The notes under the pieces were generated by a model that made no database searches, was not told the origin of the DNA, and was given only the letters and a program-made list of their open reading frames with translations. Made by a program: the position numbers and the translations under genes. Of a stretch of DNA of 64,000 bases, positions 34,635 to 47,710 are shown in pieces; position 1 is the stretch's first letter; each line of letters starts with the position of its first letter. Source of the stretch: an uncultured Microbulbifer sp. (GTDB lineage Bacteria; Pseudomonadota; Gammaproteobacteria; Pseudomonadales; Cellvibrionaceae); NCBI RefSeq assembly GCF_947504145.1, contig NZ_CANNGQ010000001.1, positions 124,001 through 188,000 on the forward strand. Direction: 5' to 3'.

Positions 34635-36347
34635 TCAATCGTTCGTTACCCGGTTAGCTTCCTCAAGACTGGTAACCCCCATCACTACTTTCCGCAAAGC
34701 CGAAGTGCGGAGGTTATTGAAGCCTTCTTTTTGCGCTTGGTCAGCGATCTGAATGGAGTTACCTCCCTCCATTATAATGCGCGAAATCCCGTCAGTGATG
34801 CGAACCACTTCATACACGCCTACGCGACCCTTGTAGCCCTTGGAGCAGTGCTCGCAGCCTACCGGCTGGTAAATTTTCCACTCGCTCTTGGGCATGGTAA
34901 CCGCATCAAAACCTTCCTCTTTCAGAACTTCATCCGGTAGATCTACCGGTTGCTTGCATTCACCACACAGCCGGCGAGCGAGGCGCTGGGCGATAATCAC
35001 ACTCACCGAAGTGGCGATATTGAAGGTGGGTACACCCATATTCATCAGTCGGGTCAGGGTCTCGGGGGCTGAATTAGTGTGCAGGGTGGAAAGCACCAAA
35101 TGCCCGGTCTGGGCGGCCTTGATTGCAATTTCAGCGGTCTCCAGGTCCCGAATCTCCCCAACCATCACGATATCGGGGTCCTGGCGGAGGAAAGAGCGCA
35201 GTGCTTCGGCAAAGTTCAGGCCTACCTTGTTGGAGACGTTTACCTGGTTGATCCCCTCCAGATTGATCTCCACCGGATCTTCTGCGGTAGAGATATTACG
35301 CTCAGCGGTATTCAGGATATTCAGGCCCGTGTATAGCGAGACGGTTTTACCCGAGCCGGTGGGGCCAGTAACGAGAATCATGCCCTGGGGTTGAGCCAAG
35401 GCATCCATATAGATCTGCTTTTGTTCTTCTTCGTAGCCCAGCGCATCAATACCGAGCTTGGCCGAAGAAGGATCCAGAATCCGCAGTACAATTTTTTCGC
35501 CCCACAGTGTAGGCAGGCTGTTAACCCGGAAATCGATGGCCTTGGTTTTGGACAGCTTCATCTTGATACGGCCGTCCTGAGGTACCCGTCGCTCCGAGAT
35601 GTCCATTTTGGACATCACCTTCAGGCGGGCGGAAATGCGCGTGGCCAATTGGATTGGCGGGCGCGCCACCTCATGCAGCACACCATCGGTACGTAAACGA
35701 ACCCGGTAGAGCTTCTCGTAGGGTTCGAAGTGAATATCTGAGGCGCCGGTGCGGATTGCATCCAGCAATACCTTGTTTACAAAACGAACGACAGGTGCTT
35801 CATCGCCACCAGCATCATTGTTGTCTTCCTGCCTGGCTTCTCCACCGTCAACATCCAAGCTATCGAGATCTTCATCATCTAACCCCTCTAGGCCACCGCC
35901 AATGTCTCCACTATTGGATAAGTAGCTTTCGATCGCCTTTGCAAGCTTCTCGGTTTCCACCAGAACGGCATCGGTATTCAAGCCGGTATTGAAATTGATT
36001 TCATCCAGTCCCGCCAAGTTGGTGGGGTCTGCCACTGCCACAAACAGCCGATTGCCCCGCTTATATAGAGGCAGCGCAAAATGTTTGCTGATCAGTTTTT
36101 CGTCAACAATATCTTTGGGGAGGAGGTCAAAGTTGTAGCTAGAGAGGTCAAACAGCGGACTGCCGAAGGCCGCCGATGCAATACTGGCCAGCTCCCGGCT
36201 CTTGATCAGCTTGGCCTCTACCGCGTGTTGGGCAAAGGTTTGCCCCTCGCGCTTAGCCGCTTTTATGGCCGATTGGGCCGTAGGCTCATCAATGGCGTTG
36301 TCAGATACCAGCCGCTTGGCCAGGCCGCTCAGTGGAGTGCTGCTCAT
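34635..36347 (-). CDS. pilB: Type IV pilus assembly ATPase PilB
   Basis: Hexameric extension motor, 570 residues. N-terminal MshEN domain, then an acidic insert (LEGLDDEDLDSLDVDGGEAR), then the ATPase with Walker A GPTGSGKTVSLYTG, Asp box and Walker B region DPDIVMVGEIRDLETAE, His box, and the zinc tetracysteine CGECKQP...CEHCSKGYKGR. The 131-base gap to pilC contains a CCGG-rich hairpin (34577-34593). Divergent from pilA. Confidence 0.97.
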   Translation of the reverse strand: MSSTPLSGLAKRLVSDNAIDEPTAQSAIKAAKREGQTFAQHAVEAKLIKSRELASIASAAFGSPLFDLSSYNFDLLPKDIVDEKLISKHFALPLYKRGNRLFVAVADPTNLAGLDEINFNTGLNTDAVLVETEKLAKAIESYLSNSGDIGGGLEGLDDEDLDSLDVDGGEARQEDNNDAGGDEAPVVRFVNKVLLDAIRTGASDIHFEPYEKLYRVRLRTDGVLHEVARPPIQLATRISARLKVMSKMDISERRVPQDGRIKMKLSKTKAIDFRVNSLPTLWGEKIVLRILDPSSAKLGIDALGYEEEQKQIYMDALAQPQGMILVTGPTGSGKTVSLYTGLNILNTAERNISTAEDPVEINLEGINQVNVSNKVGLNFAEALRSFLRQDPDIVMVGEIRDLETAEIAIKAAQTGHLVLSTLHTNSAPETLTRLMNMGVPTFNIATSVSVIIAQRLARRLCGECKQPVDLPDEVLKEEGFDAVTMPKSEWKIYQPVGCEHCSKGYKGRVGVYEVVRITDGISRIIMEGGNSIQIADQAQKEGFNNLRTSALRKVVMGVTSLEEANRVTND

Positions 36348-36856: not shown

Positions 36857-37342
36857 ATGAAAAAGCAACAGGGCTTTACTCTTATTGAATTGATGATCGT
36901 GGTTGCAATCATTGGTATTCTGGCTGCGGTAGCGTTGCCTGCGTATCAAGATTACACCGTGCGTGCGAAAATGTCTGAGGTTGTACTTGCGGCCTCTCAG
37001 TGTCGTACCAGCATCACTGAAACCATCCAATCTGCTACTGGGACCACTTTGCCTAACGCTGGGGAATGGGGCTGTGAGTCTTCGACTGCAACTACCAAAT
37101 ATGTAGGGTCAATCGCTACCAATAATGCTGGCGTGGTTACTGTTACTGTAGCTGATTCCACTGCGGCACCTGATCTTCCTTCTTCCGTGAACAGCACCAC
37201 TATTCAGTTGGTTCCCTTCTCTGATGCAACTACCGCAATTACTAATGGTGATGTAGGTGCTACTGTCCATCATTGGGAATGTGGTCCTGGCGCGACTAGC
37301 GGCGTTGACCCTAAATACCTGCCGGGCTCTTGCCGTAGCTAA
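36857..37342 (+). CDS. pilA: Type IV major pilin PilA
   Basis: Prepilin of 161 residues. The leader MKKQQG is cleaved before [20 protein letters not shown], with Glu5 present; the mature protein is ~155 residues. The globular domain is Ser/Thr-rich. The C-terminal disulfide loop lies between the Cys of WECGPG and the Cys of LPGSC, with the usual DPKYLP segment between. The chain ends Cys-Arg-Ser, so the last residue is serine, as in pilins glycosylated by TfpO/PilO. ATG 36857 follows GGAGACGG; the ATG at 36842 would add five residues to the leader. A strong terminator follows. Confidence 0.95.
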
Positions 37343-37376
37343 GATCCTTCCGGCGATCGAGCTAGCTGGATTACTT

Positions 37377-37403
37377 AAAGGCCCCATATTTTGGGGCCTT
37401 TTT
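37377..37403 (+). terminator. pilA terminator
   Basis: AAAGGCCCC, loop ATATTTT, GGGGCCTTT, then TT. It separates highly expressed pilA from the modification genes downstream, leaving only read-through or a separate promoter for them. Confidence 0.85.
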
Positions 37404-37472
37404 GCTTTCATACTGCCTCACTAGTTGGGCTGGTAGGCTCTAACAGATTTTTTTGATTAGATTTAATGTCCA

Positions 37473-39386
37473 ATGTTCCATGAAAAGCAGGCAGGACTGA
37501 AGCTCGTAATCTCGTTCTTGATCATCGTAATGGCCGGCTTCATGGGGCATCTTGGTGGCCCTCAACCTGTTTTTGTTGGTGTTGAAGGAAGTTTAGGGCT
37601 TGCTTTTCTCACACTGTCCTTTTTACTGTTGTCGCTATTCCTGCCGTCACGTCTTGCTTACTTGGTAGTCTCGCTTTATTTCACCTTGTTCTTGCTTCTG
37701 GTGTTTTCCAACTGGTGGCACTATCAGTTTTTCCAAAGTTACTTTAACTACGAATACCTTGCATTTGCACGGGATGGTTTGCGTGCGTTCGAATCGCTAA
37801 GCCAGTATGCCTATTGGCCACAATTCTCGGTTCAAGCTGTAATTACGGTATTGGTGGTCCTGCTCTATGCCAGGTTGCGAGCATTTACTATATTTCCCTC
37901 TCGGGTGCTACTTCAGTCGTCTACTTGTTTGTTGTTGTCGATAGTTTTTGTCAGCTTGTCGATCTTTCAATTGGAGCGTTTAAGGCAGGCAAATGCATTG
38001 GCATTGTCTCCATATTACTTCCATCCAGTGCAGGCATTTTTCTATCCCATGGCTGTACCTGATATTGAAACTAAAGAGGATTGGCAGCAGTTCAAATCAC
38101 GAAATCACGTTGAAAATCCAAATAAGTTTCTTTCCGGGCAGTTGGCAGGAAATAAATACAATGTGATTGTTGTGACTCTAGAGTCGTTCCGAGCTTCTTT
38201 TATTGGTGTATATGGAGGGCAGGGCTCGTTAACACCTCATTTTGATGAAATGGCAACAAAAGGTGTTCTTTTTGAAAGTTTTTACGCAAGCTCCAACTAT
38301 ACGGTGAAAAGCGAGAATGCCATTCTCTGTGGTTTCTTCGATCATAATGCAAAACTGTCAATTGCTGAGCTCGAAGGAGAAAAGAACTTAAACTGCTTAC
38401 CGAAATTTCTCGATGAATCTGATTATAAAACTTATTACATGCACGCAAATCGTGGCAAGTTTTATAACCGAGAAAATTATCTCCCACAGCTCGGTTTTCA
38501 TGATATTTATTTTCACGCAGATCGGGTTCTCAATGAAATCGATAATCGTAATTACATTGGCTGGGGGCTTTCTGACGCTGATTTTTATGAATTAGCATTG
38601 CAGCGATTGCAGGCAGACTCAGAGCAACCTTTCTTTGCGCATCTTATGACCCTGAGTGCGCATTATCCCTTTCAGTATGATTGGCCCTTAACTGTACCCA
38701 ACGAATTGACGAACAGTATGTCAAAATCAGAGAAGGTATATGCCGGATATGAAAATGCTATTTACTATAGTGATGACGCGCTCGGACACTTCTGGAATCA
38801 GTTTATCCACTCGCCTTTAGCTAAAAATACTATTCTCATAGTCACTGGGGATCACGGTGTATGGAGCTTTATTTCTGAGCTGGATCATGTGCGCCAAAAT
38901 GAGCAGTATTTTCGGGTTCCACTGTTTATCTATCACCCGGAATTAAAGGGTGGGCAGCGAATTTCTCAGGTTGGAAGTCATGTGGATATCCCGCCGACGC
39001 TTTTATCCCTGCTGGATATTCAATATGATTCTGGGACGTTCGTAGGGAAGAACCTGTTCGACCAGGTAGTTGAGCCATGGGCTGTCATGATGAAGGGGGG
39101 CGAAGTGATTGTGCGGCTAGGTGAACAGATCTGTCTCTCGCCTACACCAATGTGTGGTGGTGGAGCCTACCAAAGCTGTTGGGCGGATACGGATATCTCT
39201 GAGTTTGTTAAAAATTTCGGCCGTGGTGACTGTTATCGTATTCAAGGTGATTTGTTGAAAGGTGGGACGGAAGTGAAAATTTACGATAACTCAAGACTAA
39301 TGAAGTCCGCAGTTAGGATGATTACCTATGAAAATAACCGTGTGCTTGATAGGTCATCGGTAATCACGAAGAAATACAACGAATAA
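37473..39386 (+). CDS. LtaS/MdoB-like membrane phosphoglycerol/phosphoethanolamine transferase (sulfatase fold)
   Basis: 637 residues: about five N-terminal transmembrane helices, then a periplasmic alkaline-phosphatase/sulfatase domain. Metal and catalytic features of the LtaS group are visible: VIVVTLESF (Glu ligand), SNYTVKSENA (putative nucleophile Thr), MTLSAHYPF (His) and IVTGDHGVW (Asp-His pair). It therefore more likely moves a phosphoglycerol or phosphoethanolamine group than cleaves sulphate esters. The position, 130 bases after pilA and 46 bases before a Wzy_C ligase, suggests a surface-modification role, possibly on pilin or its glycan (inference). More AT-rich than the housekeeping genes. 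Confidence 0.82.
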   Translation: MFHEKQAGLKLVISFLIIVMAGFMGHLGGPQPVFVGVEGSLGLAFLTLSFLLLSLFLPSRLAYLVVSLYFTLFLLLVFSNWWHYQFFQSYFNYEYLAFARDGLRAFESLSQYAYWPQFSVQAVITVLVVLLYARLRAFTIFPSRVLLQSSTCLLLSIVFVSLSIFQLERLRQANALALSPYYFHPVQAFFYPMAVPDIETKEDWQQFKSRNHVENPNKFLSGQLAGNKYNVIVVTLESFRASFIGVYGGQGSLTPHFDEMATKGVLFESFYASSNYTVKSENAILCGFFDHNAKLSIAELEGEKNLNCLPKFLDESDYKTYYMHANRGKFYNRENYLPQLGFHDIYFHADRVLNEIDNRNYIGWGLSDADFYELALQRLQADSEQPFFAHLMTLSAHYPFQYDWPLTVPNELTNSMSKSEKVYAGYENAIYYSDDALGHFWNQFIHSPLAKNTILIVTGDHGVWSFISELDHVRQNEQYFRVPLFIYHPELKGGQRISQVGSHVDIPPTLLSLLDIQYDSGTFVGKNLFDQVVEPWAVMMKGGEVIVRLGEQICLSPTPMCGGGAYQSCWADTDISEFVKNFGRGDCYRIQGDLLKGGTEVKIYDNSRLMKSAVRMITYENNRVLDRSSVITKKYNE

Positions 39387-39432
39387 TTAACTTGATACAC
39401 TGATTGGGCATTAAACCGGGCGAGGCGGGGGT

Positions 39433-40683
39433 ATGTTTTCAGCTATTAATTGTTTATTGACCAGAGTTAGGTCGTTTGTATTTACTGTATTAGCTGTGGG
39501 CCTCTTTTTTTCTCCAGTTTACTTTTCAATAGGAAATCCTTGGTTCCCGTTTAACTATTATTCTGCAATGGTGAGTCTAACGGTTGCCGCTGGGCTAATC
39601 ATTCTCTATCAGTATGATTACGAAAAGATAGTGTTTTCGGCTGTTCCAGGAGCAATACCGCTTGGTCTTTTGCTACTTATGTTTTCTATTGCGTGGATTA
39701 TTTCTGGAACGTTGATTTTCTTTGTTGATAGGTATTTCGTTATCATTTGCATGTTGGCGCTGTACCTGTCCGTGTCTGAGTTATACCAAAAGGATGTAGG
39801 ACTCTTTCTTAGTATGCTTCGCGTAAAGCTTGCTGTCATAGTGGGGGTTGCTATTTCTTTTGCGGTTTTCGTGTTCTTACTTCAGGATCCCAGCCTCGAA
39901 GGGCAAGTAAAGAGGCAGCCTCCTATTTATCAGGATCTTCGTCACTTTAATTACGATTTGTACTTTGCATTGCCTGTATTGGTGTTTTTGTTAAAGGATA
40001 ACTTGAGGAGTTTAGGCCTGATTCTGTTTGCTTTTATTCTATGTGTAACTGCCGTGTGGACTGCAGGTAGGGGAATGATGCTTGCGTTAATGGCTTCTTA
40101 TACGGTTGTTCGATTACGCTTGTGGAATAGGCCGCCCCAAAAGCTGGAGATTGTGTGTTTTTTTATTCTCATATGCTCTTTGTTATTAATTCTCGTGACA
40201 GGTAAAACGGTATTTCTCTATGACACTACTTTAAAAACCGTTGCGTCGGACTCTTTGAATCAACTTAGTTCAAAGCGTATTGATCTTTGGATGGCCAGCC
40301 TTGATGCCTACTTACAGCAGGATGTTCTTGCTCAGGTTTTTGGAATGGCACCCGATGCATTTGCTCGTTACGGAGTTTGGAGAGCCGGGTCGGGCCAGCC
40401 ACATAGTAGCTTGGTACAGTTTTTAATAGAATTTGGTGCCATAGGGTTAATTTTGTTTATTGGTCTATCCGTGTCTTTGGTTAAAAAATCATTGTATTTG
40501 ATTATTTATTCAGAGTCCGATACTGATCTTTTGGCTGCTTCACTTCTTGTAGGAGGCCTTGTTTTTGGCCTCGTTGATGGGATTTTCTACCATACTGCGC
40601 CCATGGTAATGATGGTTCTAGTTATTTCATTTGTCATTCTTCGATACCATAGTTTGACTACGGGTAGCAGTTCTCGGGTGTAA
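39433..40683 (+). CDS. Wzy_C O-antigen ligase homologue, candidate pilin O-oligosaccharyltransferase (TfpO/PglL-like)
   Basis: Polytopic protein of 416 residues with around ten or more transmembrane helices. The large periplasmic loop ends in GQPHSSLVQFLIEFGAIGLI, the Wzy_C/WaaL signature with its conserved His; TAGRGMMLALMAS carries the conserved Arg of the upstream motif. WaaL, TfpO and PglL share this fold, so sequence alone does not separate them. Closeness to pilA, with its terminal serine, favours a pilin O-oligosaccharyltransferase as in Pseudomonas 1244 and Acinetobacter. GGGGG precedes the ATG. AT-rich, likely acquired. Confidence 0.8.
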   Translation: MFSAINCLLTRVRSFVFTVLAVGLFFSPVYFSIGNPWFPFNYYSAMVSLTVAAGLIILYQYDYEKIVFSAVPGAIPLGLLLLMFSIAWIISGTLIFFVDRYFVIICMLALYLSVSELYQKDVGLFLSMLRVKLAVIVGVAISFAVFVFLLQDPSLEGQVKRQPPIYQDLRHFNYDLYFALPVLVFLLKDNLRSLGLILFAFILCVTAVWTAGRGMMLALMASYTVVRLRLWNRPPQKLEIVCFFILICSLLLILVTGKTVFLYDTTLKTVASDSLNQLSSKRIDLWMASLDAYLQQDVLAQVFGMAPDAFARYGVWRAGSGQPHSSLVQFLIEFGAIGLILFIGLSVSLVKKSLYLIIYSESDTDLLAASLLVGGLVFGLVDGIFYHTAPMVMMVLVISFVILRYHSLTTGSSSRV

Positions 40684-40867: not shown

Positions 40868-42271
40868 TTAATAGGCGTGCTTACTTACAAAGCCCTTAAA
40901 TATTGTAAAAAAGATAATCTTAATATCAAGCCAAGGCGACCAATTGCGAATGTAATACAGATCGTATTCAACGCGCTTGGTAAGGTCAGTGTCCCCCCTC
41001 CAACCATTAATCTGCGCCCAACCGGTAATGCCGGCCTTCACTTTATGTTTCTTCATATAACCTGGTATCTCGGCTTTAAACTGCTCCACAAATACGGGAC
41101 GCTCGGGGCGGGGACCTACAATCGACATCTGCCCCATCAAAACATTAAGAAACTGTGGCAATTCGTCGAGTGACGTTCTGCGAATAAACTGGCCGAACGG
41201 AAGCGCCGCCTTGTTTCGACCCCCTCCCCATTGGATGCCATCTTTTTCACTGTCCACAGGCATTGAGCGAAACTTAAGCATCTCAAAGTGCTGACCGTTC
41301 CAGCTTACCCGCTCTTGCCGATAGAAAACCGGCCCGGGAGAGCTTAACTTTACACCGATGGCTAGAATCAGCATTGCCGGCGAAATTATTGCCAAGATTA
41401 ACGCCGCGATAATTCGGTCTTCAAGAGCCTTAATCAGGCGATTGACACCGCTCATGGGTGATACGGAGATATTTACCAGTGGCATATCTCCGACTTCGGA
41501 AACTGAATGATTCAGTAACGAAAAGCTAAAAATATCCGGTATATAACACACGTCGACTGTGGAAGTGTCTAGGCTGTCTACTACCTGTTTGATCGTGGCC
41601 GTTTGCTCCAACGACATGGCAATCCAGACCTGGTCCACATGGTTCCGGGAGACGTACGCAGCTGTATCTGCGGACGCCCCCAAGAATTCTATATCGTTAC
41701 CGATATCACCAGTCTTTGCCCCTTCAAAATCGGAGAAAAAACCCACTATGTCGTAACCAAGCTCTGGAGAGAGCTTTATCCTTTCCGCAGCCTCTTTTGC
41801 TAAATCGGAGCCACCGACAATCACCATTTTACTGTGATTGATACCCCTCATGCGTAGGCGAGCCAGAATGCCTCGTATAGCCAACCTACTGGCAAGCAAG
41901 CACAAAAAGCCCAAACCGAACCACAGGCCAAACCACAGCCGCGAATAATCATTTGAGGTTTTTGTAATGACAGAAAGTAGCGCTAGTCCGGTAAAAAGTG
42001 TCACCCAGGCAACACTAACGGTACGAAGCTCTTGAATGAACGGTACACCGCGCCGTACACGATATAGCGAGAAATAGGGATAAACAGAAAAAGAAAGTGC
42101 AGCAGCAATAACGAAGGCAACTAGGTATCTAAAACCAAAGCTCCGCCCCTCGAAAACAATGCCATAAGCCAGCCAGCAGGCGGCCCAAAGTACTGCCAGA
42201 TCCAAAAATCGCGTTAGCCATGTCAATAAAAGTGAAAACTCACGTAGAAGGCCCGCATACAGGCTGCGCAT
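40868..42271 (-). CDS. Polyprenyl-phosphate hexose-1-phosphate transferase (WbaP/WcaJ family)
   Basis: Initiates glycan synthesis by moving sugar-1-phosphate from a nucleotide sugar to undecaprenyl phosphate; 467 residues. Four N-terminal helices and a CoA-binding-like domain (MVIVGGSDLAKEAAERI) precede the catalytic domain: SSPGPVFYRQERVSWNGQ, FEMLKFRSMPVDSEKDG, RRTSLDELPQFLNVLMGQMS, GPRPERP and KAGITGWAQINGWRG. All key motifs of the bacterial sugar transferase are intact. A near-perfect GGAGG precedes the ATG at 42271. The sugar cannot be told from sequence. Confidence 0.92.
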   Translation of the reverse strand: MRSLYAGLLREFSLLLTWLTRFLDLAVLWAACWLAYGIVFEGRSFGFRYLVAFVIAAALSFSVYPYFSLYRVRRGVPFIQELRTVSVAWVTLFTGLALLSVITKTSNDYSRLWFGLWFGLGFLCLLASRLAIRGILARLRMRGINHSKMVIVGGSDLAKEAAERIKLSPELGYDIVGFFSDFEGAKTGDIGNDIEFLGASADTAAYVSRNHVDQVWIAMSLEQTATIKQVVDSLDTSTVDVCYIPDIFSFSLLNHSVSEVGDMPLVNISVSPMSGVNRLIKALEDRIIAALILAIISPAMLILAIGVKLSSPGPVFYRQERVSWNGQHFEMLKFRSMPVDSEKDGIQWGGGRNKAALPFGQFIRRTSLDELPQFLNVLMGQMSIVGPRPERPVFVEQFKAEIPGYMKKHKVKAGITGWAQINGWRGDTDLTKRVEYDLYYIRNWSPWLDIKIIFFTIFKGFVSKHAY

Positions 42272-42540
42272 CTCCCCTCCCCAATATCTCGAAATTCAGT
42301 CAATATCCGTGGTGTCAATTGGGAAACCGTTGTTGCCCTGACACCCTGTCAAAAATTAGTTCTATTTTAGTAACAAGCATGTCATTTATATCATATGGCT
42401 CAAGGCTAATACGTAGAGATCATCTCAGCTTAGGCTTGTTATAAGTACAATAAGTCATACCTTTTCTCGAGGCCATCGAGAACCTAAAATATCTGTGTAT
42501 TATATATACAGTAATTTTGAGGCAAGTCTAGTATGGCTAC

Positions 42541-43833
42541 TTAGCGTCGCCAGACCGCGAGCGTGTTGAAGCCGAGCAGCCGTTTCACCTGCCAAGCTGC
42601 CAGTAGGTTCTGTGTGGCCAGAGCTACTGCCGTAGCAACAGCACTACCTGTTTCTCCCCAGACAGGTACTAGCGCGAGAGCCAGGGTAACTGCAATCGGA
42701 CCTGAAATCAGGGCCATATTTCGCAATTCCCTTTCGTGACCAGACATAGTCAATAGTATTGCAACAGAACCTGTCACGACATTTACAAACTGCCCAATGA
42801 CTAGAATTTGTAGCAGATGAGCCCCATCTCTAAAGCCATCTCCAAATAGCGACATCACCAAGCCGGGTGCTACTAACATAACCGTCACAGCCGGAAGAGC
42901 AAGCAATACCATTAATTTCACTGACGAGAGCGCCAATCTTTCCGCTTCAAGTGTTTGCCCCTTTTTGTACATTGCGGCAAAGCGAGGAGCGATCACCAAG
43001 TTACAGGCAGTGAGGATAAAACTAGTTAAAAGCGCGGTACGCTGGGCCACAGCAAGTTGGGCAACCGCATCAGGCGCACACCAAATTCCAGCAATAATCT
43101 GCCCGGACCACAAAACCAGCTGGCTCATGATCATCGTAACCCATAGTGGTAGGCAGCTTTGGAATAGAGCTCGCCAAGTGATGAGACCAGTACTGTCACC
43201 AATTCCCAATCTGAAGAAAGCATAAGCGATAAACATAATTGACAGCGTGGCAGCGCTGTAAGCCCAACCTGCATATTCAGCGTTTTTAATCCCGAAGAGT
43301 AATAGCGCCAGAGCGAGCAGCAGGTTGACCAAAATGCCAACGGTGGTTACCGACGCAACAACACGCCTCAACCCTTGTAAACTCATGGAGACTAGAGTGA
43401 GGAGCGCAAGGCCTACCAGACCTGGGGCCATTGCGCGAAGCACCTCCTCCAAACTGGGCTTACCGAACACATAGTTGGCAAGTATGCCTGCGGATAAGTG
43501 CAGTGTCAGGGCCATAAGCGAGCTAACACAAGCTACTAACAGAATGGACCGGTGGGATACTGATCGTACTACTCCCCATGCCTGCTCTACTAATGCGGCA
43601 CCAGTAAAACGGAGCACCGCATTGTCGAGCCCCACGCGGGAAAAAGCCGCCAGAACGGTAATAAGACTAAAGGCCAAAAAGTAGTAACCTGACTCAGCAG
43701 CTCCAAGCTGACGACCAACCACCACACTTGCAAGAACCGCACTTAGTGCGGCCAAAATACGAGCGGTAATACTAACCGCCGAGGTTCGCAGAAATTCTTT
43801 TTCTTGGCTGCACCAAGTAGATAACACCGTCAC
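42541..43833 (-). CDS. Wzx-type polysaccharide/oligosaccharide flippase
   Basis: MOP-superfamily membrane protein of 430 residues, about 12-14 hydrophobic helices, typical Wzx start (FLRTSAVSITARILAALSAV). Predicted to move a lipid-linked oligosaccharide to the periplasm. The start is GTG 43833, with GGGGA upstream; a nearby ATG at 43838 is out of frame. A gap of ~270 bases separates it from the initiating transferase downstream, with no gene in it. Confidence 0.88.
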   Translation of the reverse strand: MTVLSTWCSQEKEFLRTSAVSITARILAALSAVLASVVVGRQLGAAESGYYFLAFSLITVLAAFSRVGLDNAVLRFTGAALVEQAWGVVRSVSHRSILLVACVSSLMALTLHLSAGILANYVFGKPSLEEVLRAMAPGLVGLALLTLVSMSLQGLRRVVASVTTVGILVNLLLALALLLFGIKNAEYAGWAYSAATLSIMFIAYAFFRLGIGDSTGLITWRALFQSCLPLWVTMIMSQLVLWSGQIIAGIWCAPDAVAQLAVAQRTALLTSFILTACNLVIAPRFAAMYKKGQTLEAERLALSSVKLMVLLALPAVTVMLVAPGLVMSLFGDGFRDGAHLLQILVIGQFVNVVTGSVAILLTMSGHERELRNMALISGPIAVTLALALVPVWGETGSAVATAVALATQNLLAAWQVKRLLGFNTLAVWRR

Positions 43834-43890
43834 GTCATTTTCCCCAAAAGAAGATGCTTTTAAATTTCCATCTTATGAGAATAAATCTCA

Positions 43891-44577
43891 TCAAACGCTA
43901 ATTTCATACCCGAAAACTCTGAAATCGGAGTGATACAATTCATAGATTGCGGACTTAATTTCTTCACTGAAGTCTGGAGTCTCTTCCGAATGGTAAGTAT
44001 TGTTTGCGTGAGGGAAATTCTCTGGGGAAGGTATATTTAAATTCTTAAAAACAGCAATAATTTCATCTTCAATATGTTCTAACTTACATACGTGATCGAC
44101 TACAATTTCATCAAAATAATTGCAAACAAAAAATACTTGTGGGCGAAACAGGTTATGCTTGAAGACGCTTGATGGTGTTAGATAATCCAAAATAAAACTC
44201 TCAAACGTGGGAGAGGTAATCTGTAGGTGATGAGAGAATTCAAGGTCAGCGGGTCGACCATTTCCGCCATTTAAAATGTAGTTATATGCAGAATAAATTC
44301 TTGTGACTGGGTGGCGTACTATCGTGAACTTGAAAAAATCGTCAAAATAAAACCTGTTTGCTTCTTTATATATTTCCCAAGGTGCATGATTCCTTCGAGT
44401 AGGAGCTTTAAGCGCTCTGAGCATGCTCGTACCTCCGGATTTTGGGATGTGTACGAAAACATACTTATATTTCACCATGGACGAAGTATAAGGGTAGGGG
44501 TAAATGGAATTTTGTACCTGCCTCAAAAGCCCTTTTCGGAGTGGTATCGACTTCCCAATTGTTTGTAAAAAGCTCAT
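43891..44577 (-). CDS. Carbohydrate sulfotransferase (Sulfotransfer_2 type)
   Basis: 228 residues. The PAPS 5'-phosphosulphate loop is FVHIPKSGGTSMLRAL and the 3'-phosphate motif is FTIVRHPVTRIYSAYNY, the two defining elements of the family. No signal or membrane segment, so it should act on cytoplasmic lipid-linked glycan. Strongly AT-rich. PAPS supply genes are not in the window. Confidence 0.88.
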   Translation of the reverse strand: MSFLQTIGKSIPLRKGLLRQVQNSIYPYPYTSSMVKYKYVFVHIPKSGGTSMLRALKAPTRRNHAPWEIYKEANRFYFDDFFKFTIVRHPVTRIYSAYNYILNGGNGRPADLEFSHHLQITSPTFESFILDYLTPSSVFKHNLFRPQVFFVCNYFDEIVVDHVCKLEHIEDEIIAVFKNLNIPSPENFPHANNTYHSEETPDFSEEIKSAIYELYHSDFRVFGYEISV

Positions 44578-44621
44578 TTGCTCAAGCCAATTGAAAATTG
44601 AAAATAAATTTCGAGTATCAC

Positions 44622-45755
44622 TTAAATCCCCAAAATAGCACGTAGTCGCAGTTTATCTCTTTTTGAGTCGAAATGTTCTATAGCTCTTTTGCGGCCTTTG
44701 GCACCCATTTTTATACGAAGTTTTGGGTCACTCCAAAGTCGTAGTAAGGCATTCGCATGCGCTTCAATATCACCAGTAGGGATTAGAAACCCTGTCTTCT
44801 TGTCCACTATCGTTTCAGTAACACCAGCGCTTCTACCTGTCACTACAGGGATTCCAAAAGACATTGCTTCAATGATTGAAACGCCAAAAGCTTCTTCCTG
44901 TTTAGTTTTTTCGGACTTTTTATTATGGGCAGTAAAAATATCGGCTGAGCCAAAAAACTCCATAGCTCTATCTCGCTCTACAGATCCATATAAGTGAATA
45001 CTTTCTTTAAATGTAGACTTTGCTACAAGTTTGGCGCATGCCTTTTTTAATGTCCCGCCGCCGACCAGGTGCAAGTCACCCTTCAGCCCCTTTGACCTTG
45101 CTATCTCAAATGCTTTAATGGTTTCAATGGGGCCCTTGAAGTCTGTTAGTCGCCCCAAGTATAAAATATTTACTTTATCAGATTCAGGTTTTCTAGTCGG
45201 TTTTAGTTCGTCCGTATTAACAGAAAGGTGATTTACGATTATATCCGCTTCTGGAAATCCGATGTCTATAAGCTTTTTTTTCGTGCACGTGGAGTTCGCA
45301 ATCAAAGTTACCTTTCCAATAAGTTTTTTGGCTCTGGCTACATAGAAAAACCCATGGGCACGAAAAAATGGAAGCCCCTCTATCCGCCTATCCCAAGTAA
45401 CGTCGTGACCGTGACAATGAATTATGATTTTCTTATTAAACTTTTTAAGTTCTTTCCAGAGGTAAACTGCCGTTGTCAAGTAATGGCAAAATACAACAGT
45501 ATCCTTGGGTGACTCACTTAGAATACGGTTCAATCTTGCCTTAATTGCTTTTGAGAAAAGATATAAATGAAGCTTTATTGGCATGCCAAAAGTGCGGGAG
45601 AGTGAAGCTCCACCATGTGGGGAGTCTGGAGAATCTAAAATAGAGGATGCAAGGGAAACGAACATATTTTCCGGCATGATGAAATCATTTATGCGGGTCA
45701 TCCACACTTCAGAAATCTTAGGAGGTGTAGGCGCAATCGTTAAGACTTTATACAT
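44622..45755 (-). CDS. GT4-family glycosyltransferase
   Basis: GT-B fold transferase of 377 residues. NILYLGRLTDFKGPIETIKA opens the donor domain, and the EX7E-type motif is EEAFGVSIIEAMSFGIPVV, with GVTETIVDKKTGFLIPTGD following. N-terminal HCHGHDVTWD is an acceptor-side loop. ATG 45755 (MYKVLTIAPTPPK) has GGGGA upstream and overlaps the preceding sulfotransferase by eight bases, so the two are coupled. Confidence 0.92.
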   Translation of the reverse strand: MYKVLTIAPTPPKISEVWMTRINDFIMPENMFVSLASSILDSPDSPHGGASLSRTFGMPIKLHLYLFSKAIKARLNRILSESPKDTVVFCHYLTTAVYLWKELKKFNKKIIIHCHGHDVTWDRRIEGLPFFRAHGFFYVARAKKLIGKVTLIANSTCTKKKLIDIGFPEADIIVNHLSVNTDELKPTRKPESDKVNILYLGRLTDFKGPIETIKAFEIARSKGLKGDLHLVGGGTLKKACAKLVAKSTFKESIHLYGSVERDRAMEFFGSADIFTAHNKKSEKTKQEEAFGVSIIEAMSFGIPVVTGRSAGVTETIVDKKTGFLIPTGDIEAHANALLRLWSDPKLRIKMGAKGRKRAIEHFDSKRDKLRLRAILGI

Positions 45756-46518
45756 AGTCGCTATCCCCTCCGCAGCCTGAATTAGATACAAAATCAATCA
45801 GTTCCTTATAATTGATGACAAACTCATCAAGTTTCGCAGGGTTTGATTTTACATAGGTGCTGATCAGCGAACTTCTGTCTACATTTAAAAAATCGCAGAT
45901 CGCCTCTGAAATTTGTGGTTTCAAACCACTCCCGGCAACCATCTCTTCGTAGTCTATATCTATCGATTCAAGACCGGAGAAAAACTGCTTGTATTTTTGT
46001 CGCTGAGTTTGAATCCTTTTGATATAAAAAACTGCTTCGCTCGGATCCACTCGCAACGTTACGGTCTCCGGCTTTTCATATACATGTGCGGAAAAACGAC
46101 CGTGTTTGGTTTGATCGTGCATTAGCTTAAGAGAAACGAATTGTTTTAAAATATTTCTTCTCTTTAAGGTTATTAGCTTGACTCCAGACAGCCCTGATAA
46201 ATAGTGCTTGACACGTGGGTCTCTCTCAATTTGGTTGTACATCAGCCGAAACCCCATTGCGCTCTCATTGGACCTAGGCGCCCAACTGTTTTCCATGGTT
46301 TTTATCGGGTTCATCGCTGCACCACTAACAACTGTCTTCCATAGAGTTCGTAATCTTCTATACCTCTTTAAAATATGAGGGGGTGACTTCTTATGCAAGC
46401 CGCCATAGCCAAGCAAAACCTCACCATCACACCGAATTTTTGAGTGTGAGTTTAACGATTGCTGCAGGAAGGCAGAGCCTGTCCGCTGGGAAGATAGCAG
46501 TATAAACTTTTCGTTCAC
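45748..46518 (-). CDS. Sulfotransferase family protein (Stf0-like)
   Basis: 256 residues starting from GTG 46518. The N-terminal FILLSSQRTGSAFLQQSLNS is the 5'-phosphosulphate loop of Stf0/NodH-like enzymes, and the segment VKLITLKRRNILKQFVSLKL resembles the 3'-phosphate region with its Arg. Second sulfotransferase of the cluster and unlike the first, so two positions may be sulphated. AT-rich. Confidence 0.8.
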   Translation of the reverse strand: MNEKFILLSSQRTGSAFLQQSLNSHSKIRCDGEVLLGYGGLHKKSPPHILKRYRRLRTLWKTVVSGAAMNPIKTMENSWAPRSNESAMGFRLMYNQIERDPRVKHYLSGLSGVKLITLKRRNILKQFVSLKLMHDQTKHGRFSAHVYEKPETVTLRVDPSEAVFYIKRIQTQRQKYKQFFSGLESIDIDYEEMVAGSGLKPQISEAICDFLNVDRSSLISTYVKSNPAKLDEFVINYKELIDFVSNSGCGGDSDYV

Positions 46519-46543
46519 AATTCAACCTGACTAGCTAACATAT

Positions 46544-47710
46544 TTAACGACTGGGTTTCCAGGTTGTGGTTTTTATGCCCAACATGACTTTTAACACTGC
46601 AATTGCTGCGGCAACGTGAATGTACGTGAAATAGAATACAAAATAAGGGAGTTTTATTCGGATCCCTTTTTCCTCAGCGAATAATCCCAGTAGTAAAAAT
46701 ATTATCCAAATCGCCGCCCCCGTCATGGTGAGAAGCACAGCTACCGGGCTACCGCTGGCCAGTAGTGAAATAACTGCAAAAAACCCAAAGAAAAGGGTGA
46801 ACCACCTAAGAACTCTTCCCGAAAACACATGGATGAAATACCACCCTGTTTTAATTGGATTAAAAATTTTCGGGCGGCATAAAATCGAATATAAAGCTCG
46901 ATTTACTGTTCTTACTCTTCTTAAGAAATCTTCTTTGCTGGAAAGGCTGTATTCCTCTCGGGAAACGGCATTTGGTTCATATGCAACCCGGTAGCCTTTT
47001 AGGACCACATCGAACGCTATAATTCCATCTTGGGTGCAACCAGTCGGTATTTTTTCAGGATATAACTTTCTCAGCATGGCAAAGTTGCCCCCTTGTACAT
47101 ATGGAAGTGACCCTATTTTTGTTAGATGAGTTTTTATGAATTCTTCATATTTATAAAATAATCCCTGGCCTTCGCCAGCACCATTGTTAGATATTTTCTG
47201 GTGAATTTCTCGACCACTTACCGCACCAATTCCGTGTTTCATTAATGTTTCTACCAATGCATCTACACAGTTCAGATCAAGAATTGCATCGGCGTCGCTA
47301 AACACTAAAACTTCTGAGCAAACGTTTTTTAATGCGTTCGCTATCGCAGCTTCCTTTCCCACTCTTATCGAGCTTGCATATATTTTTATTGGATATGGTG
47401 TTTCTTTATCGTGATAGCTCTCAAGAAGCTCTTTGCTCCCGTCATTACATCCGTCAAGTACAAATAGAAAGGTCAGATTCCCTTCGTACTGTAAATTCAT
47501 GATATTTTTTATTTTTCTATTAATGAGGTGACGAATGTTATGCCCGGGGATCAATAGCGTAACTTCTGGCATCAGTCTGTTTTTTGGGGAAGCTTCAGAT
47601 TTTGAATTTCCAAAAATATTTGCAGAAAACCATAGGGCAACCGGATAAGCTATATAGCAATATATGATTAATGAAATAAATATAACAGCAAGAAACATAA
47701 AGAAGTTCAT
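46544..47710 (-). CDS. GT2-family membrane glycosyltransferase
   Basis: 388 residues: one N-terminal helix, a GT-A domain and three or four C-terminal helices, like cellulose-synthase/HAS-type transferases. VTLLIPGHN opens the domain; the DxD-like VFSDADAILD binds metal and nucleotide; a later QDGIIAFDV (acceptor Asp) is present. The usual QxxRW is replaced by FLRRVRTVNRAL, so it is probably not a processive synthase. First gene of the minus-strand cluster. Confidence 0.87.
   Translation of the reverse strand: MNFFMFLAVIFISLIIYCYIAYPVALWFSANIFGNSKSEASPKNRLMPEVTLLIPGHNIRHLINRKIKNIMNLQYEGNLTFLFVLDGCNDGSKELLESYHDKETPYPIKIYASSIRVGKEAAIANALKNVCSEVLVFSDADAILDLNCVDALVETLMKHGIGAVSGREIHQKISNNGAGEGQGLFYKYEEFIKTHLTKIGSLPYVQGGNFAMLRKLYPEKIPTGCTQDGIIAFDVVLKGYRVAYEPNAVSREEYSLSSKEDFLRRVRTVNRALYSILCRPKIFNPIKTGWYFIHVFSGRVLRWFTLFFGFFAVISLLASGSPVAVLLTMTGAAIWIIFLLLGLFAEEKGIRIKLPYFVFYFTYIHVAAAIAVLKVMLGIKTTTWKPSR

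Follow-up and report, generated by a model that had tools for sequence, protein, structure and literature searches.

The 64-kb window analysed here (the whole stretch of 64,000 nucleotides from an uncultured Microbulbifer sp.) carries a type IV pilin gene, pilA, followed on the same strand by a gene for an LtaS-like membrane protein and by a gene for a Wzy_C-domain ligase. This trio is probably a built-in kit for pilus decoration, because related bacteria have the three genes together at their pilus gene as well. The row of three genes on the + strand, with a pilin ending in Cys-Arg-Ser, had already been recognised in the initial annotation of this DNA, and its coordinates agree with ours:

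36857..37342, + strand: pilA, major type IV pilin of a four-cysteine subtype (161 aa; PF00114 and PF07963; C-terminus YLPGSCRS)
37377..37401, + strand: terminator-like stem-loop with a T run, in the gap behind pilA and ahead of the accessory genes (10-pair stem; found by pattern)
37473..39386, + strand: LtaS/LtaP-like membrane phosphotransferase of the sulfatase fold (637 aa; PF00884, 177.9 bits); proposed phosphoglycerol transferase for the pilin or its glycan
39433..40683, + strand: Wzy_C, WaaL-like ligase (416 aa; PF04932, 46.7 bits, cut-off 31.7); proposed pilin O-oligosaccharyltransferase

The intergenic gaps measure 130 bases between pilA and the LtaS-like gene and 46 bases between the latter and the Wzy_C gene. 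The LtaS-like protein has five hydrophobic segments and a catalytic domain with the Glu, Thr, Asp and His set of the LtaS fold, while the sulfatase motif CxPSR is absent; its best sequence and fold matches are LtaP and LtaS, and four cysteines of its C-terminal part (C554, C561, C569 and C587) are invariant. The ligase contains the Wzy_C domain without PglL_A or Wzy_C_2, and NCBIfam names no family for it. The predicted fold is WaaL-like; no TfpO or PglL entry stood among the fold matches listed, which is uninformative.

Recurrence of the trio in related bacteria

The scan of named genomes yielded ten strong homologues of the LtaS-like protein (36–45% over the best segment), carried by Agaribacterium haliotis, an uncultured Porticoccus, four Zhongshania (with Zhongshania marina among the named strains), Litorivivens lipolytica and three further metagenome-assembled genomes, and pilA lies directly upstream of all ten. 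Among 390 genomes of the order, five others possess a match at E < 1e-100, each adjoining pilA, at a locus where a ligase homologous to the window's is also encoded. From their matching pilin ends, five named loci appear to be the same as genomes of our G series, so each was counted once; the distinct loci are the ten from named genomes, the G374 locus and the window, the weak match L170 (23%, E 1e-10) being omitted. Counted in this way, pilA directly precedes the LtaS-like gene in 12 of 12 loci, and a Wzy_C gene is present in 10 of them. The LtaS-like gene, which the initial annotation had seen as an arrangement not known as described, regularly accompanies pilins of this type, and its linkage to pilA at every locus rules out a chance insertion. 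Among the titles and abstract openings listed from the mostly open-access literature searched, none describes a pilA-linked gene of the LtaS-like or sulfatase-fold kind.

The place of the ligase gene varies. It lies downstream on the same strand in the window, L165, L167, L173 and G374, downstream but convergent in L164 and L171, and between pilB and pilA in L166, L169 and L172, the last position being also that of a second, partial copy in G374. The L168 locus ends at a contig end, and a ligase fragment stands at the end of another contig of the same genome. No homologue of the window's ligase was found in the Agaribacterium haliotis genome, whose two other Wzy_C genes are both beyond the 17.9 kb read around the locus; the LtaS-like gene can therefore occur without this ligase. 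Beside the pilA-LtaS pair of this species there is a TfpX/TfpZ-like accessory gene (L163:9956-10627, - strand; NF041437, 126.8 bits, cut-off 200). The LtaS-like gene of one metagenome contig (L167:655-2564) is split over two overlapping frames, through either decay or a sequencing error.

With the ligase as the query, eight other genomes of the order gave matches at E < 1e-12, and in every one the matching gene is at the pilA locus and has a sulfatase-fold gene as a neighbour. Weaker matches in G177, G151 and G132 (E 5e-10 to 4e-5) were omitted from this count: only short stretches were read around the first two, and the third lies among sugar genes with no pilus gene within the 17 kb read. 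A first scan of genome contigs with the ligase as the sole query found no relative, and tblastn against plasmids gave no match. In the phylogenetic tree the window's ligase groups with the ligases of the pilA-LtaS loci, apart from 21 chromosomal Wzy_C proteins (20 chosen from a longer list, and L001) and outside the clade of the genus's other pilA-linked ligases; the partial ligase L134 and the fragment of L164 were left out.

A terminator-like element was detected by pattern in all 12 gaps between pilA and the LtaS-like gene, against 0.11 expected from mononucleotide shuffles, by a criterion that was fixed after the loci had been inspected. The stem sequences differ between most of the gaps.

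The region behind pilA is variable also in a broader sense. The relatives set has 58 genomes, and the pilA side of pilB was read in all but G050, which gave no PilB match within the limit applied; the 57 comprise 37 from the genus, with the window's among them, and 20 of the 21 from elsewhere in the order. Some stretches end at contig ends. PilB is 78–96% identical within the genus, whereas the genes behind pilA change from genome to genome. They encode Wzy_C proteins (G000, G002, G008, G012, G028 and G030 in the genus, G041 and G042 in the order), sulfatase-fold proteins (G000, G016, G021 and G028; G039 in the order), PF00144 proteins and multi-membrane proteins without a clear family. Of the 37 genus genomes, 6 have a Wzy_C gene at a distance of up to about 6 kb from pilA, where uniform gene placement in independent genomes would give an expected number of 0.10 genomes; for a sulfatase-family gene the count is at least 4 against 0.28 genomes expected, a lower bound since only part of the slot genes was scanned for PF00884. 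In G028 the slot runs from pilA through genes for an EptA/CptA-like protein and for a product with transposase-type domains to a Wzy_C gene, an order of functions like the window's with different proteins. The 590–660 aa multi-membrane proteins tested either match no family or match nothing beyond marginal models, TPR-like ones among them; they were left unnamed, and a kinship with TfpW is a guess. The PF00144 beta-lactamase-like protein is encoded by the first gene after pilA in L070, L073, L095 and L099 and follows pilA and a sulfatase-fold gene in two cases (L093:3426-4592 and L202:7461-8675). Second pilin genes occur in the slot of L074, L082, L079, L086, L073, L093 and L110.

Because of the linkage to pilA and the terminator at all 12 loci, the ligase clade and the location of all eight matching ligases at pilA, we regard the locus, with very little doubt, as a pilin-accessory cassette of the type known from Pseudomonas tfpO and tfpW, one that includes a phosphotransferase-type member.

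Acceptor, polysaccharide cluster and enzyme roles

It is likely that the Wzy_C protein glycosylates the pilin. The initial annotation had proposed a pilin O-glycosylation system of this kind acting on the terminal serine; linkage, phylogeny, predicted fold and domain content speak for a pilin-linked O-oligosaccharyltransferase, and it is the acceptor that fares less well. Within the genus all six Wzy_C-linked pilins end in Ser or Thr as compared to 5 of 31 others (Fisher 2e-4, uncorrected for kinship, the six representing about three ligase lineages), the count being made on the first motif-found pilin per locus, where several loci hold more; for terminal Ser alone the numbers are 3 of 6 and 4 of 31 (P 0.07). 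At the ligase-holding loci of the window's cassette type elsewhere, however, none of the nine pilins has such an end (CRG in four, then CRQ, CRIAQN, CK, CKAASAPF and CKDDAAPF), which rules out the terminal-serine acceptor as a general rule. A reading in which the Wzy_C protein modifies the terminal serine and the LtaS-like gene has an accessory role of its own would agree with the serine end of the window's pilin, with the genus count and with the domain architecture of the ligase, judged by the class features given in passages of PMC12645811. We find it rather doubtful in view of these nine pilins, of the position of the window's ligase outside the genus clade and of G024, whose pilin, 83.7% identical to that of the window, also ends in CRS with neither the LtaS-like gene nor the ligase present. 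The terminal serine is thus a possible acceptor in the window strain and not a general one.

The LtaS-linked pilins have in common four cysteines and the motifs WGCESS and YLPGSC. Judging from the sequences, candidate acceptors include two invariant serines that follow the second cysteine, Ser75 and Ser76; Ser75 is present in all 12 LtaS-linked pilins and in one of four unlinked four-cysteine pilins, a comparison of sequences too few and too closely related to be decisive. The four-cysteine subtype is accompanied by other enzymes in G002, G024, G029 and G052. Next to the pilins of G024 (L080) and G029 (L065), 84% and 70% identical to that of the window, there are a GT2 gene and a multi-membrane protein of 637 or 653 aa, so close pilins pair with different enzymes.

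The surroundings of the trio bear on a different role of the two enzymes. Upstream of pilA lie pilB, pilC and pilD on the opposite strand, and downstream a sugar cluster (40868-47710) is convergent with the cassette (neighbours named by Pfam and NCBIfam):

34635..36347, - strand: pilB, assembly ATPase, with pilC and pilD next on the same strand
40868..42271, - strand: WcaJ-type undecaprenyl-phosphate glucose phosphotransferase (TIGR03023, 491.1 bits, above the cut-off)
42541..43833, - strand: polysaccharide flippase-like protein (Polysacc_synt)
43891..47710, - strand: two sulfotransferase-like genes, the second slightly under the cut-off, and two glycosyltransferases

The GC content is 0.39–0.49 from about 37 to 48 kb compared to 0.50–0.59 in the flanks read (28–37 and 48–54 kb), and the sugar genes thus share one low-GC island with the cassette. 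The two proteins might accordingly serve a neighbouring exopolysaccharide cluster, Wzy_C as its polymerase and the LtaS-like protein as a decorating enzyme, with the proximity of pilA being incidental. The window has no other Wzy_C gene (the second one of the genome is on contig 2), and the LtaS relative of G049 sits among sugar genes. We nevertheless consider such a polymerase role unlikely: both genes recur at pilA, where the tested flanks hold mostly housekeeping genes, the clade of the ligase includes none of the 21 chromosomal Wzy_C proteins, and the sugar cluster is on the opposite strand. A polymerase family would be tied to polysaccharide clusters and not to pilA, and the eight matching ligases are all found at pilA. 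Under the pilin-decorating reading, the WcaJ-type enzyme is a possible source of the lipid-linked glycan, with the flippase-like, sulfotransferase-like and glycosyltransferase genes as its possible further supply, and the glycan may possibly be sulfated.

For the LtaS-like protein, we hold the addition of phosphoglycerol to the pilin or its glycan to be more probable than not. Transfer of phosphoethanolamine to the pilin in the manner of PptA or EptA would be in line with the EptA/CptA-like gene in the G028 slot and with the modification of Neisseria pilin with phosphoethanolamine by PptA, as described in passages of PMC4010543. This is quite improbable, however, since LtaP and LtaS are the best matches, and since no phosphoethanolamine transferase model matches the window's protein or that of L165 at E 1e-3.

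Several observations weigh against the decoration of the pilus by both enzymes, in addition to the nine pilin ends above. The LtaS-like family is absent at E < 1e-60 from the 368 other genomes of a class-wide sample and was found in this order only. The next nearest relative of the LtaS-like protein, in G049 (32%, E 5e-53), has genes of the polysialyltransferase-like and glycosyltransferase kinds as neighbours, and pilA is absent from its visible side. The curated LtaS model NF053595 gives 120.1 bits, far under its cut-off of 970, for which reason we call the protein LtaS-like and not LtaS; the structure model is middling (mean pLDDT 64.2, pTM 0.63); and the ligase tree has long branches, that of the window's ligase among them. 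Finally, the adjoining low-GC sugar cluster makes a polysaccharide role of the cassette in this strain conceivable.

Proposed mechanism and known pilin-modifying systems

On balance we favour a scheme in which the pilin receives a glycan from the Wzy_C protein, and the pilin or the glycan receives phosphoglycerol from the LtaS-like protein, both chemistry and acceptor being predictions. The pilin gene would travel together with the genes of its own periplasmic modification enzymes, these being placed after a terminator that attenuates transcription. The terminator would stop most pilA transcripts, and the read-through would provide low levels of both enzymes, as suggested by its conservation and by the Pseudomonas precedent. 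The Wzy_C protein, WaaL-like and of TfpO/TfpM-like architecture, would then transfer a lipid-linked glycan to a hydroxyl of the pilin, and the LtaS/LtaP-like protein would use Thr277 to move glycerol-1-phosphate from phosphatidylglycerol to the pilin or its glycan, the donor and the product being those expected for the family. The likely benefit may be a varied pilus surface, for example against pilus-binding phages.

A bolder version, in which the two enzymes form one pathway building a teichoic-acid-like coat on a Gram-negative pilus, seems improbable to us. If true, it would place glycerol-phosphate units on, or polymerised from, a glycan or serine of every pilin, and a pilA cassette that can be swapped would determine the surface charge of the pilus. 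Pilins are known to be decorated in two ways, with glycans and with phospho-forms, and both would be joined in one transferable cassette by a phosphotransferase linked to pilA and adjacent to a ligase. Bacteria with charged pili could then be recognised by a genetic marker, and the drivers of pilin diversity (phages, surfaces, predators) would become testable beyond the usual pathogens. A direct test is possible because named strains (Zhongshania marina, Litorivivens lipolytica and Agaribacterium haliotis) carry the cassette.

The enzymes of lipoteichoic acid synthesis, LtaS and LtaP, share with the LtaS-like protein the five hydrophobic segments and the catalytic domain; the window's gene differs in its location at the pilus locus of a Gram-negative bacterium, in its score under the curated LtaS cut-off and in the four invariant C-terminal cysteines. 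The proposed reaction resembles, by description, that of Neisseria PptB, which puts phosphoglycerol on PilE (passages of PMC10948894 and PMC4810144) and is likened here for transfer to a pilin serine, a chemistry that we infer for our protein; the LtaS-like gene itself is linked to pilA and, at most loci, to a ligase gene. The window's ligase is similar in its described class features to TfpO/PilO and TfpM, which have Wzy_C without PglL_A or Wzy_C_2 and are encoded near their pilins (O-oligosaccharyltransferase classes as set out in part of PMC12645811), and whose cognate pilins end in Ser for TfpO and in Ser or Thr for TfpM, the C-terminal residue being the one that receives the glycan. The CRS end of the window's pilin agrees with this, while the C-terminal Ser or Thr is not kept in the pilins of its ligase clade.

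The closest parallel is that with the tfpO, tfpW and tfpX/Y/Z cassettes of Pseudomonas aeruginosa. According to passages of PMC11841053, and of PMC11626772 on the Pseudomonas pilin groups, accessory genes there also stand directly behind pilA with a terminator between, and the pilin type and accessory genes change together; the former source describes the terminator after the pilin gene as a common feature of such cassettes, and TfpO and TfpW as glycosylating pilins, which leads to evasion of pilus phages. The window's type differs from them in possessing a sulfatase-fold phosphotransferase and in the varying position of its ligase gene, which may be downstream, convergent or between pilB and pilA.

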